Source of the DNA: Onthophagus taurus
Lineage: Eukaryota; Arthropoda; Insecta; Coleoptera; Scarabaeidae
DNA: 64,000 bases
Reading direction: 5' to 3'
Assembly: GCF_036711975.1 (NCBI RefSeq)
Contig: NC_091967.1
Coordinates: 6,014,001-6,078,000, forward strand
Part shown: positions 56,965-63,190 of the stretch, one piece after another
Layout of the letters: each line of letters opens with the position of its first letter
Position numbering within the stretch: position 1 is the stretch's first letter
Made by a program: the position numbers and the translations under genes
The notes under the pieces: generated by a model
Seen by the model: only the letters and a program-made list of their open reading frames with translations
Told to the model about the DNA's origin: nothing
Database searches by the model: none

Positions 56965-58469
56965 AATATTATTTTTCGAGAATATCTTGGTTTTTTATAT
57001 ATTCAAGACATTTCTGAGAAATAAGTCCATATAATACAACACCTTTTGATACAGTACCAAAAGAAGAAATAGGGAAAACCTTAAAAGCGTGACATACAGT
57101 TATTTCTACAAGTACTGTTATACTGGAGTGAAAATTAAGGTTGGTATTAATATTTAAAAATTAAATTGCTATCTATTGTTGCTAACTTCGGGTTTAACGA
57201 TTTTTATTCTAACTTTCTTATTTTTTGAGACATCTTTGGACTCATTTTAAAGGTTTTTTTAATGAAGATGACAAATATGTCAAAATTGACATTGACGTTT
57301 CAAACCGGAAGTGATTGTGTTTCCATTAATATTAAAGTTACATATGTCGAGATTGAACTCATTTTAAAGGATTTTTAATGAAGTTGACAAATATGTCAAA
57401 ATTAAAAGTTGAAACTTCGAACTTTTTGGTTTTTTGAGATAAATGCGTCAAGTTTGGACTCCCTTTAAAAGTTACTTTATGAAGATTACGAATATAATAA
57501 TAAAATTAAAGTTGACATTGACAAATGAGAGTTTTTTTTTCACGACTAAACCCGACAGTTTCTAGTTTTAGGTCTAGTGTTAGTTTTAATTGTTATTTAA
57601 CCCTAAATTCTTGTACATTTTGATCTAAAAATGTTTTTTTTTGATTTAATGCACTTACCTTGTTTATAATTTCATCTATTTACCCATTTTGAATTAAATA
57701 CAACCTTTAAATCCAATTAATTATGTGTTTTTCATTAAAAAAAACTTAAATTCAACGTCAATTTTGACAAGCAACTGCAATATTTGGATCTTAATCACCA
57801 TGGTAACCGAGTCAAGTTGGATAACCTATAAAATAAAAAAATTTTATTCCGATTTTTTTATCAATTCTAACCTAATTTTTGTTAATTTTAAAACAATTCG
57901 AAATCTTTACGATTATCTCGCATTCATAACAAATTCGTTAATTGTAGTTAATTTAAATCGATTCTAATTAAGAGAAATAAATTAAAAATATCTTTTTTTG
58001 ATTTAATCCACTTACCTTGTTTATAATACCCTAGATAAACCAATTTTGAGTTAAATACAGCCTTTTAAACCATTTAAATAAGACTTTTTCCTTAAAAATA
58101 CTTAAATGTAATTTCAATTTTGACAACCACCTGCAATATTTGTATATTAACCATTTAATCACCATGGTAGCCGAGTCAAGTTGGATAACCTAACAATAAT
58201 AAAATTATAACCGTTAATATTTCGCTGTATATTTTAATATTTTTTAAATTTTATTTTATTTTTTCTTTTTATATTTGTATTTTTGTTTATTGCTTTTTAA
58301 ATGAAATACACTGTATAAATAAAAACATAGAAATGTCAATTCTTCCAATTACGTCACAGCAAGGCCTTTGCGTTCATATATTTAGGCAACCAATTATACT
58401 CTCAAAACACATTGTCAAAAATATAACCTAAAAAACGAATTTATTTAGTAAATATATTAATTATAAAAA
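56965..58469. repeat. URB1-RCL1 intergenic region with tandem duplications
   Basis: A direct duplication of about 190-210 bp lies at about 57640-57830 and 58000-58192, period about 357 bp. Shared landmarks are CACTTACCTTGTTTATAAT, CAATTTTGACAA, CACCATGGTA and CCGAGTCAAGTTGGATAACC. Just before it, CATTTTAAAGG...TTTTTAATGAAG.TGACAAATATGTCAAAATT recurs two or three times (57240-57490). A fragment of the AACTAGAACTAACA repeat lies at 57540-57620. No coding capacity is evident. Confidence 0.7.
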
Positions 58470-59656
58470 ATGGTAGCAATTTCAAATAAAGATAACACTT
58501 TAGTGTATAAAGGAAGTGCTTGGTTTAAACAACGTTTAATTCTATCAATATTAAGCGGAAAAGCAGTAAAAATAATTGATATAAGAACGAAAGATGATGA
58601 GCCGGGTTTAAGAGAATACGAAGACAAATTAATACGATTATTTGATAAACTAACAAACGGAACGATCGTTGAATTAAACGCAACTGGAACAAGTATTTAT
58701 TTTCAACCTGGTTTATTAAACGGGGGTGTTATTAAACATGATTGCGGAACGGAACGATCTATAGGTAACTTAACCTCCTTAAATATCCGTTTATTTTATA
58801 GTTTTATTTATTTTTAGGATATTATTTGGAGGCTTGTTTAATGTTGGGATTTTTTTGTAAGCAACCTGTAAATGTAACGTTACAAGGTGTTACATCAAAC
58901 GTTATAGACCCATCTGTTGATCATATTAAAATTTCTTCAATACCTGTTTTAAAAAAGTTTGTTGTTGATGATGAAGGTATTGAATTAAAAATAACTAAGA
59001 GAGGTGTTTTACCAAACGGAGGTGGTGAAGTTGTTTTTAAATGTCCCATTCGAACTAAATTAAGACCAATTCAATTACTTGATTTTGGAATGGTTAAAAG
59101 AATTCGGGGGACGGCGTATGCGCTAAGAATGTCGCCTTCAATGGCTAATCGTATGGTTGAATCCGCGAAAGGAGTACTTTTAAATTTTTTACCTGACGTT
59201 TTTATAAGTACTGATCAACGGAAAGGGAACCAATCTGGTAAAAGCCCCGGTTTTGGGGTCCATTTATATGCTGAAACAACAACAGGGATTTTTTACTCAT
59301 CAGAAGCTGTTTCAAAAGTATTACAACCAGGCGATACGCCTTCGATTCCAGAAGATGTTGGGGTTATGGCTGCTCAAAGGTTATGTGAGGAAATTTTGAA
59401 TGGAGGATGTACTGATTCCGCATCTCAATCATTGGCGATTTTATTTATGGCTTTAGGACAAAAAGATGTTTCAAAAATCGTTTTGGGACCACTTAGTGAT
59501 TATTCAATTAACTTTTTACAACATATTAGAGAATTTTTTGGGGTTACATTTAAAATAGAAAATTATCAATGTGAAGATGATGAAGTGGAAAATGATAAAG
59601 TGTTGTTAACTTGTTTGGGAATTGGGTATAGTAATATAAGTAAAAAAACTTTTTGA
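58470..59656 (+). CDS. Rcl1: RNA 3'-terminal phosphate cyclase-like protein (RCL1)
   Basis: Two exons, 58470-58764 and 58818-59656, encode 377 residues (human RCL1 373). The cyclase-like fold is clear: YKGSAWFKQRLILSILSGKA, DEPGLREYEDKLIRLFDKL, GTSIYFQPGLLNGG and CGTERSIGYYLEACLMLG. KRGVLPNGGGEVVFKCP, GTAYALRMSPSMANRMVES and SPGFGVHLYAETTTG follow, then EDVGVMAAQRLCEEILNGGC and DSASQSLAILFMALG. RCL1 proteins lack cyclase activity and work with Bms1 in the small-subunit processome during 18S pre-rRNA processing. It follows URB1 on the same strand after a repeat-filled 1.5-kb gap. Confidence 0.96.
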
Positions 59657-60404
59657 TAGTTTACTTAGGAATTTTTTAATAATAAAAATAAAGTTGAAAC
59701 TCTATTCTAAACATTTATTAAAATTTTTCTTACAAATACACATACACATATAAATTTTCCACATTATGCTTTGATTAATACTCGATACAGATGGAATACA
59801 CCTTATAAATAGATCCTTATAAATACTTTCTTCTTTATGTTCGTATATAAAGACTTAATTAATTTATTCAAAATTGGAATCATAATACAATTTATCATGT
59901 AAATAATAACAACAAGGTATATATTTATATAAAAACATATATCATATAGTAATAATATAACAAATCGATTTTTATTTTTAGTTGTAAACATCATTTACCA
60001 TTTTTTTGAGTTGGTCCTTTTTTAAACATAACTTGTACTTGTACAAAGTCTTAAACGTTACTAAACAACTCGAATTATCTTAATAATTATCCTAGTTTAT
60101 TTTTAACTTTGTTTTAATGTATTAAATTACGCTTACGATCCGATTTAATTTAACCTACATACCTTTTTGACGTCTATACAACAATTAAAAACGATTATTC
60201 GAGGTTATGTCAATAATATGTAAATGCGACCACTACATTAGTAATTAATTTATGAGTACGTGAGCTTTATCAATTTTTTTCCATTCATTTTCTTTTGATT
60301 AATTTGTTAGTATTAAAAAAATTTGGTTAATAACGTTCAATCGCATTGTTACTCCCATTTTCAAAAGTTTCCGAACTGTTAGCAGCGCCATCCGGCGCCT
60401 TCTC
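59657..60404. other. Intergenic region between convergent RCL1 and cytochrome b561
   Basis: AT-rich; contains both 3' UTRs. AATAAA near 59685 is a likely RCL1 signal. No other feature was recognised. Confidence 0.5.
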
Positions 60405-60552
60405 CTACAATCGTTCCGTTACGTAAACCTTTGTACCTTCGCGCATAGATGGCGATCGAACCGCGTAAGATACCAACACGCCCAGTGCTACCAACGCGGC
60501 ACCCAGTGCATTAACAATTATCCCTTCTTCCTGCCACTCGGAGTATTTTGAT
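60405..60552 (-). other. Distal alternative last exon of cytochrome b561
   Basis: After acceptor TTTAACTCACCAG, the exon reads ...E|SKYSEWQEEGIIVNALGA and a hydrophobic stretch, then an Arg/Glu tail ending KVYVTERL and TAG. This aligns with the sixth transmembrane segment of CYB561. It joins the shared donor at 61122 (CTTGA|GTAAGT) in the same phase as the proximal exon. Adds 48 residues plus stop. Confidence 0.85.
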
Positions 60553-63190
60553 CTGGTGAGTTAAAAAAAATCTATGTTAAGTAAGCACAGTTAAGAGATG
60601 GTTAATAAAGGTTAAGAAAGCAATTCAAATAATAAAAATAGCCAAATTTTATTTGTCATGCAAGTTTTAGTACAAAAAAGCATTTAACCTCAAAAAAAAA
60701 ATTCAAAACAAAAAAAACGTCAAAAAGCTGTAAATATGGCCGATTTTTTTAAAGATCCCCGGACCGTATTAAAATATGAGCGCGAAATCGAAATTCATCT
60801 CGTTGTAATATATAAACCATCACAACTGCCAAACCGATTAAAGACATTCCGATCGAATTAACGATGATCCCTTGAGAGTCCCAGCGCGAATACCTTGATC
60901 TGGAATAATTCATCGAGAAAATAATATTATGATTCATCCAAAATGACCTTATAATCATAAATGTCACTATAGGTCTCAGGATGAATTAACCTCTTAATAT
61001 CCTTTTAACTTGATTAATTAAGGAAAGATGTTTTTTTAATAGCAACAAAAAACACTCACAAAAATCGTAAAACTCCAACAAAATGGGTAATAAGAATAAT
61101 TAATTAAAAAAAAAAACTTACTCAAGTGTCCAAATAACTTTTTCGGTTAAACCGGTGAGGCACGCTGCTATGGCTAACATGAATGTGGTAAGTCCAAAAG
61201 AGGCGTGTATGGGTACCAATGACGCTCGAAAAGCTGCTGTGGCTCCTTCACAGCACAATAGGACTAAGAAACTGAAGAATCCCACTACAAACTAAATATA
61301 TTAAAGATTAAAGATGCTTAATTATTAAAAAGTTGCAATTTATATTAATAGAATGAAGAGGAAATATGTCTACCAAGCTCTATATAATATAATAGGTATA
61401 GCATCTATTGCTTAGGAAAAACAGATCATGATTTGCGTTTCAGAAGATATAGAAGGTGGAACGCAGTACCAAGCTCCCTTCCAAGAACTCTTTGACAACT
61501 GGATGAAATTAAATATAGCATGTTGGTTTTGTAGTTAATAGGTATCCAAGACTTTCTAGGGAAACAAGAGCTTTCTTTGTGTCATTTTAGACATCGCAGG
61601 TACATATAAGTCTTGTGTAAGCAGTAAGTAATACTCTGCAAGCAGTATCTAAGCCTTTGCCAACAATTTCTAGTGGTTCATAAGTAGTAGAAAGTCTTTT
61701 GCCAACAGTATCTAGTTTTCTATTCGCAGCATCTACACTTCTCTACACTCAGTGTTTAGTCTATAAATAAGACCTACTCTTCTATTGGTATTATTTTATC
61801 TTCCACCAGTAATATCTAATCTTCTGCAAGTAGTAAATATTATTCAGCAAACAGTATCTAGGCCTTTGCTAACAATATTAGTTATGTGCCAACACTATCT
61901 AGTGGTTTGTAAACTGTAAGTAGCAATCTGCAGACAGCAAGTAATCATCGGCGTTCAGTATCTAAGCCAATCAACAATATCTAGTTTTTCGCCAATAGTA
62001 TCTAGTGATTTGTAAGTAACAGGTAGTTTTTTGCAGTGGTATCTAGTTTTCCATCAGTAGTGTTTAGCCTCCTATAAGCAGGACCTACTTTTTCATTGGT
62101 ATTACTTTATCTTTTATCAGCAGCATCTAATTTTCCGCAATCAGTAACAAGTATCTAATTTTCTACTACGAATATTAAGACTCCAAGTAGAAAAATCTCT
62201 TTTTATACTCTTACTTCTAAAACTATTCTATCCCACCTCCCTCATTCTTATTTTACTTCTGAAACGTCTACATACTTAGAAAGCACCTTAGTGCTTTTTT
62301 AAACCATCTTTATTGTATGTATGTATTAGTTATTGATTAATGTTGTTATACTTCATCCTCGTCTGATGCCCGTTTGATTCTCCGTTAATATATTCTTGTC
62401 TTATTTGCAGTTTCAGTACTCTTTTACTCTCGTAGTATATATTTCACATAGGTTACCTAACCAGATAATTTACCTACCTGTCACGGCGACTTATTACCGC
62501 AGTATTTCGCAGCGGAGCTATAACACTATAGCATATGTTAAAGCTCGAAGGGAAAAGTGTTTTATTTTTATGTTTTGAAAGTAATTGTCACATGATTATA
62601 TTATTATTATATTATTTTATGCGTGTTATTAGCGTTTATGTTAAATGTAATTAAAATCTGTCAAGGTAGTATTAGAATATGAACAATAATCTTTTACCTG
62701 AATAGCAAATAAACCCATTGTAACAAGTCCAATCCAGCTGTGGAGTGAATAAAAATTGGGAATTGGCGGTGTTTTAAGGTTATGATAATCTAAAACGGCT
62801 AAAAATCCGATTGCAACGCATGGAATGGCGAGGGCGTGAAACACCGTGTGGAGCAGTTTAACATATATCCTTCTGCAACATCTACAGATGCGGTAAAGAA
62901 GAATTGCTGGAAAAGATAATAAAAAAAAATAAATAAAAGAAAGTGAAGAAGATAGCAATAACTTACAGAAACCGCTAAATGTAATAAATCCGGCCACCAT
63001 AAGCACCGGATGCAAATTGAACTGTTTGTTTCCGTTTTCACGCCACGCGAATCCATTGTGGTACTGTATGGTCCAGTATAGGGTAAGCGCCAACGAACCG
63101 AGAAGTAAAATACTCGCCAAAACAACCACCAGGGTGTATTCGAACCAACTACCGCAACCCCATTCGTTTTCTTCCTCATAATGTCTGTGT
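60405..63190 (-). CDS. Cytochrome b561-family transmembrane ascorbate reductase
   Basis: Minus-strand exons 63190-62967, 62906-62698 and 61291-61122, then either 60899-60749 or 60552-60405, stay in frame. The protein has six membrane spans with four conserved haem-ligating histidines, visible in NLHPVLM, LLHTVFHAL (the second is the likely ligand), YSLHSWIG and VPIHASFG. LDYHN and LTGLTEKVIW are further family landmarks. It moves electrons from cytosolic ascorbate across endosomal or secretory membranes to monodehydroascorbate or ferric iron. The start is not settled. A contiguous ATG at 63249 reads into the exon through what looks like a T-rich acceptor tract (ending at 63191), so a short upstream first exon, possibly beyond 63250, is more likely. 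Intron 61292-62697 contains a complex tandem repeat. Confidence 0.88.
60749..60899 (-). other. Proximal alternative last exon of cytochrome b561
   Basis: After acceptor GAATTATTCCAG, the exon reads E|SRYSRWDSQGIIVNSIGM, a hydrophobic stretch, then a charged tail ending HILIRSGDL and TAA. It is clearly homologous to the distal exon (S.YS.W...GIIVN) and in the same phase, so the two are interchangeable. The tails beyond the helix share no similarity. Confidence 0.85.
61610..62190. repeat. Degenerate higher-order tandem repeat in b561 intron
   Basis: Short variants of GCCAACAGTATCTAG and GTTTTCTATCAGCAGCATCT recur many times. On top of this a longer unit repeats with a period near 310 bp. GTGTTTAGTCTATAAATAAG through CTACTCTTCTATTGGTATTA to TCTAATCTTCTGCAA (61749-61823) is matched by 62058-62140. 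Heavily diverged. The rest of the intron holds no recognised feature. Confidence 0.7.

Follow-up and report, generated by a model that had tools for sequence, protein, structure and literature searches.

Exchangeable duplicated C-terminal exons are an established class of gene arrangement, and the cytochrome b561 gene described here is a new example of it. Tandem duplicated exon substitutions have been reported as 236 events in human, 77 of the 236 being C-terminal, and in 154 genes of the fly, and nearly half of the human and fly genes with such substitutions encode products with at least one membrane helix (PMC9741552). The terms b561, CYB561, CYBRD1 and nemy do not occur in the main text of that survey. 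Homologous 3'-terminal exons of the multiple poly(A) type have also been described, e.g. in human capping protein beta (PMC3228551), and ELAV proteins of Drosophila bypass proximal poly(A) sites of last exons via U-rich sequence downstream of the cleavage position (PMC8055025, in which nemy is not mentioned). On the side of the protein, Drosophila Nemy is reported to support secretory-vesicle monooxygenases for neuropeptides and octopamine, with isoform-specific roles (PMC4523183). No report of a duplicated last exon in a cytochrome b561 gene was found in the open-access literature, though the isoforms in public gene sets may already list one.

Most of the gene lies on the minus strand, from 63190 to 60405, of a 64,000-nucleotide stretch of the Onthophagus taurus genome (hereafter the window). 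Its features are as follows (a slash marks a splice junction).

62967..63190, minus strand: exon E2, with the N-terminal part, TM1 and the first heme His (from the Dcytb alignment)
62698..62906, minus strand: exon E3, with the Cys-rich cytosolic loop RICRCCRR and the second and third heme His (from the Dcytb alignment)
61122..61291, minus strand: exon E4, with the second double-Cys loop LLCCEG, TM5, the fourth heme His and the common donor GA/GTAAGT
60749..60899, minus strand: terminal exon A (151 nt), encoding SRYSRWDSQGIIVN, helix 6 and a tail ending RSGDL, stop TAA
60672..60736, minus strand: tract rich in U (31 T in 45) in what would be the 3' UTR of A, a candidate site for a U-rich-binding protein (e.g. 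ELAV)
60648..60653, minus strand: AATAAA, candidate proximal poly(A) signal, 96 nt past the stop of A
60405..60552, minus strand: terminal exon B (148 nt), encoding SKYSEWQEEGIIVN, helix 6 and a tail ending VTERL, stop TAG
60096..60101, minus strand: candidate distal poly(A) signal, the first AATAAA downstream of exon B's stop

The identity of the gene, proposed in the original prediction, was borne out by a PF03188 match with an E value of 7e-39 (133.7 bits for both isoforms at a cut-off of 23, profile positions 1-136 of 137). E2, E3 and E4 join in frame and together encode all four heme His along with the first five helices, while helix 6 comes from A or B, so that all six helices are present; these assignments follow the alignment to human Dcytb, with a hydropathy calculation confined to A and B. 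Nemy proteins are characterised by double cysteines in each of the two cytosolic loops of the core (PMC10691727), and with RICRCCRR and LLCCEG in its core the gene bears the marks of the Nemy group of insect cytochrome b561. The E2 acceptor follows TTTTTGACAG and E2 starts in phase 2. There is no in-frame Met ahead of helix 1 in E2, and an upstream coding exon is expected 5' of 63190. E4 was returned at a single place in the genome search, and 2 of the 10 PF03188 matches returned in the genome lie on the contig of the gene, both within the gene itself. Contigs C10 and C7 carry six more PF03188 matches, of which five exceed the Pfam cut-off and two lie about 4 kb from each other on C10. Convergent with the gene, open frames at 58467-59656 on the plus strand belong to what we take, by appearance, to be an RNA 3'-terminal phosphate cyclase-like (RCL1) gene.

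A paralogue on contig C16 (minus strand, frames between 2980427 and 2979500) is without double cysteines in its loops and has EDEIAL after helix 6, in place of EDxxLL; we take it to be of the CG1275 type, judging by these features. Its final intron matches that of the Nemy-type gene in position and phase (AG/T), and a single helix-6 exon was found within the 8 kb scanned, so that the doubling of the exon is absent from this paralogue. With its one helix-6 exon, it provides a built-in comparison for the duplicated exon.

The two terminal exons are exact at base level as originally predicted, i.e. consecutive on the minus strand, each with a good acceptor, the same Glu codon and its own stop. 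The E4 donor reads ...CTTGA/GTAAGTTT, with 61122 as the final exon base. Acceptor A (...AATTATTCCAG/ATCAAGG) opens its exon at 60899 and the stop finishes at 60749, and acceptor B (...TTTAACTCACCAG/ATCAAAA) opens its exon at 60552 with the stop finishing at 60405. Both joins are in frame, GA and A completing one split Glu codon in each. A and B are thus adjacent, homologous, of similar length and both in phase 2, as in tandem duplicated exon substitutions. The motif S.YS.W...GIIVN was found in both exons as it had been given, the hydrophobic helix that follows aligns in either case to helix 6 of Dcytb, in line with its predicted role as the sixth span, and the tails (RSGDL versus VTERL) do diverge as strongly as claimed.

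Homology of A and B is evident at the protein level, with 16 of 38 residues identical in a gapless alignment and an ungapped local score of 94, which none of 5000 shuffles reached (mean 20.3, SD 4.1, maximum 46). In searches of the whole 291-Mb assembly, with two candidates scored for each query and E 10 as the cut-off, each exon found, besides its own locus, only the other one (E 4.6e-4 for query A, 6.3e-4 for query B); a weak third relative may be missed because the first look passed only two candidates each. The helix-6 exon of the C16 paralogue was absent from both results and was returned by the Dcytb query only. Whichever exon is attached, the match to human Dcytb also covers helix 6, at 122.1 bits for the A form and 127.7 for the B form, the helix-6 stretch alone scoring 56 for A and 66 for B. 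Over 35 positions, A and B share 14 identities; A has 8 in common with Dcytb and 9 with the C16 paralogue, B has 12 and 10, and Dcytb shares 15 with the C16 paralogue. These values fit a duplication inside the Nemy lineage, 35 positions being too few for a firm tree.

A helix-6 profile detected no third exon copy above the threshold besides A, B and the C16 exon (next best E 0.21) in open stretches of at least 20 residues in all frames of the window, 12 kb past its upper end and 8 kb on C16; the three positives are themselves among the four sequences on which the profile was built (A, B, the C16 paralogue, Dcytb). At the DNA level, the repeat search of the window returned no A-B pair, the exon-to-exon local score was 15 compared to a shuffle maximum of 12, and the flanks scored 9 both upstream (shuffle maximum 17) and downstream (maximum 12). 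Searches of a prokaryote contig collection with E4 plus B (211 stretches matching the pattern) and of a viral one with E4 plus A (26 stretches) yielded no relatives, and little was expected from them because these collections hold prokaryote and viral sequence.

By codon position, 19, 26 and 11 of the 38 codons are identical between A and B at positions 1, 2 and 3, respectively. Maximum likelihood gave a dN of approx. 0.60 and a saturated dS of about 15.6, the NG86 estimate was undefined and two further methods returned no value; dN/dS is therefore not measurable for this pair because silent sites are saturated. With silent sites saturated and second codon positions kept, A and B look like old copies under selection. 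The G+C content of the exons (0.40 in A, 0.49 in B) exceeds that of the flanks (0.25-0.29). The codon score peaks in the true frame of both (0.114 in A, 0.05 in B; best of 42 overlapping noncoding windows -0.057), but this is a weak test trained on 2734 codons from uncurated open frames, in which a wrong frame of B reaches -0.031 and the gene's own core no more than -0.011. In neutral simulations (2000 each), the open frame survived in 5.2% (A) and 4.8% (B) of the runs at 0.75 substitutions per site, an assumed value, and in 19% (A) and 16% (B) at 0.3.

The reading that we consider probable is that of a Nemy-type gene with an anciently duplicated terminal exon whose copies A and B are used as alternative last exons, and one gene would very probably give two proteins differing in the last membrane helix and the tail. 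The terminal exon, comprising helix 6 and the cytosolic tail, would have been tandemly duplicated long ago, and the single E4 donor would since be joined to either A or B, both presumably being used in vivo. The AATAAA after A would then specify a cleavage that competes with splicing on to B, and anything that blocks this proximal site would favour B; an ELAV-type protein bound to the U-rich tract, in the manner described for Drosophila neurons, would be one example. Such an ELAV-type bypass is a possible model. Within the 196 nt between A and B, the AATAAA is the sole match among seven hexamers scanned; alone it proves little because AATAAA occurs at 2.97 per kb on the strand of the gene. T tracts as dense as that of A occur at six places on the minus strand (that of A included) and at five on the other, and the densest U tract of A lies upstream of the hexamer, whereas the published ELAV signal lies downstream of cleavage (PMC8055025). 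Regulated alternative poly(A) sites are reported for Drosophila nemy, which is also in the overlap with a gene set under regulation of poly(A) as well as alternative 3' splice site choice (PMC13228862, a preprint), but the nemy event displayed there is a tandem 3' UTR and not an alternative last exon.

A proximal AATAAA no better than chance also suits a variant of this reading in which A and B would be alternative acceptors on a composite last exon with a common distal poly(A) site, B lying inside the 3' UTR of the A form. Competition between acceptors would then decide, perhaps via RNA structure, for which precedents are reported in PGRP-LC, CG42235 and pip (PMC9013439). Among five region pairs, one, between intron 4 and the sequence ahead of acceptor B, reached -27.2 kcal/mol and exceeded all 60 two-base-block shuffles, but dinucleotide shuffles matched it in 14 of 400 and 11 of 400 cases, uncorrected for five trials; this pairing was rejected as evidence of competing RNA structure, and we regard the variant as possible but the less likely arrangement. 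It is more doubtful still that one exon is a dead or dying relic and only the other is used. B would more likely be the used one, since A is without the Glu common to Dcytb, the C16 paralogue and B and falls below B in both comparisons with Dcytb. On the other hand, the frame of A is intact, its acceptor is canonical, its G+C content and codon score resemble those of coding sequence, and its second positions were kept after silent saturation; a neutral copy would seldom stay open at the higher of the two simulated divergences. Finally, tandem duplications may leave fragments behind, and B might be the remnant of a second tandem copy of the gene. This is highly improbable, as no second core is found on the contig among the PF03188 matches listed and the acceptor of B is in phase with the shared E4 donor.

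Under alternative last exons, as preferred here, the swap would exchange helix 6 together with the last part of the lumenal loop before it and the cytosolic tail after it. Residues of cytochrome b561 for ascorbate, metal and heme have been listed (PMC10691727), and those that could be placed by the Dcytb alignment, i.e. Glu H4+21, the aromatic H4+25 (Trp) and His H2+22, are all in the shared exons. Since these and the heme His are shared, both isoforms would keep the electron-transfer core. At H4+25, where an aromatic residue is typical (PMC10691727), E4 has Trp in the place of Phe184 of Dcytb, a lumenal ascorbate contact; the residue is aromatic but not the usual Phe. Lys225 in helix 6 of Dcytb contacts a propionate of the cytosolic heme (PMC10691727), and its position is Arg in both A and B. 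At the entry of helix 6, A (DSQGIIVN) has Gln before the conserved Gly, where B, Dcytb and the C16 paralogue have Glu, and this substitution is a possible functional difference between the isoforms. Both tails would be cytosolic under the topology of the family (PMC10691727). Tail A has an RxR triplet (RFR). Tail B ends in ERL, which is class III PDZ-like, and carries two RxxS/T sites and a single SP site. All of these patterns are short and common.

Most likely, the difference between the isoforms concerns not catalysis but their binding partners, their stability or where they are expressed. The original prediction had proposed that the tails direct the reductase to different membranes, and the tails are indeed divergent and cytosolic. 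Moreover, Drosophila nemy isoforms are reported to have different effects, with one transcript localised differently (PMC4523183). However, these transcripts were distinguished by their forward primers and by an insertion in the first exon, all sharing one reverse primer, and not by their last exons ("last exon" and "C-terminus" do not occur in that paper). A scan of both tails found no dileucine, DxxLL, YxxPhi or KKxx pattern, and without dileucine, YxxPhi or KKxx the sorting idea has no positive sequence support. The lysosomal EDxxLL signal is described in CG1275 proteins only (PMC10691727), and no match to it was found after helix 6 in tail A or B, so neither has the mark of the CG1275 group. 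We therefore consider divergent sorting unlikely. The contact of helix 6 with the heme propionate, together with the Glu to Gln change in A, would also allow an ancient switch in Nemy electron transfer. The two isoforms would then not be alike in their redox behaviour, or would serve different monooxygenases (PHM or tyramine beta-hydroxylase), and the choice between them would fall to a neuronal poly(A) regulator; this speculative view is slightly less probable again.

A duplicated last exon would offer a clean and testable route from one gene to a pair of membrane forms that share their heme core, and parts of this arrangement are found in several known systems. The double-Cys loops, His H2+22 and Glu H4+21 are those of Drosophila nemy and the insect Nemy group (PMC10691727), but the papers on this group describe no duplicated last exon; the words "exon" and "splice" do not occur in PMC10691727, where isoforms were removed before the analysis. 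Proximal and distal coding last exons with U-rich sequence near the proximal one are shared with ewg, nrg and px of Drosophila under ELAV/Hu control (PMC8055025), although the exons of these genes are not described there as homologous duplicates and the U tract at A is a predicted site. Capping protein beta is likewise similar in its two homologous last exons, own stops and candidate poly(A) signals (PMC3228551), but it is a different gene, b561 and nemy are absent from the main text of that paper, and the poly(A) sites of A and B are predicted only. The C-terminal tandem duplicated exon substitutions (PMC9741552) differ in that the use of both A and B is here deduced from sequence, and share with this locus neighbouring homologous exons of equal phase, either of which could be used, an exchange of helix and tail, and old divergence.
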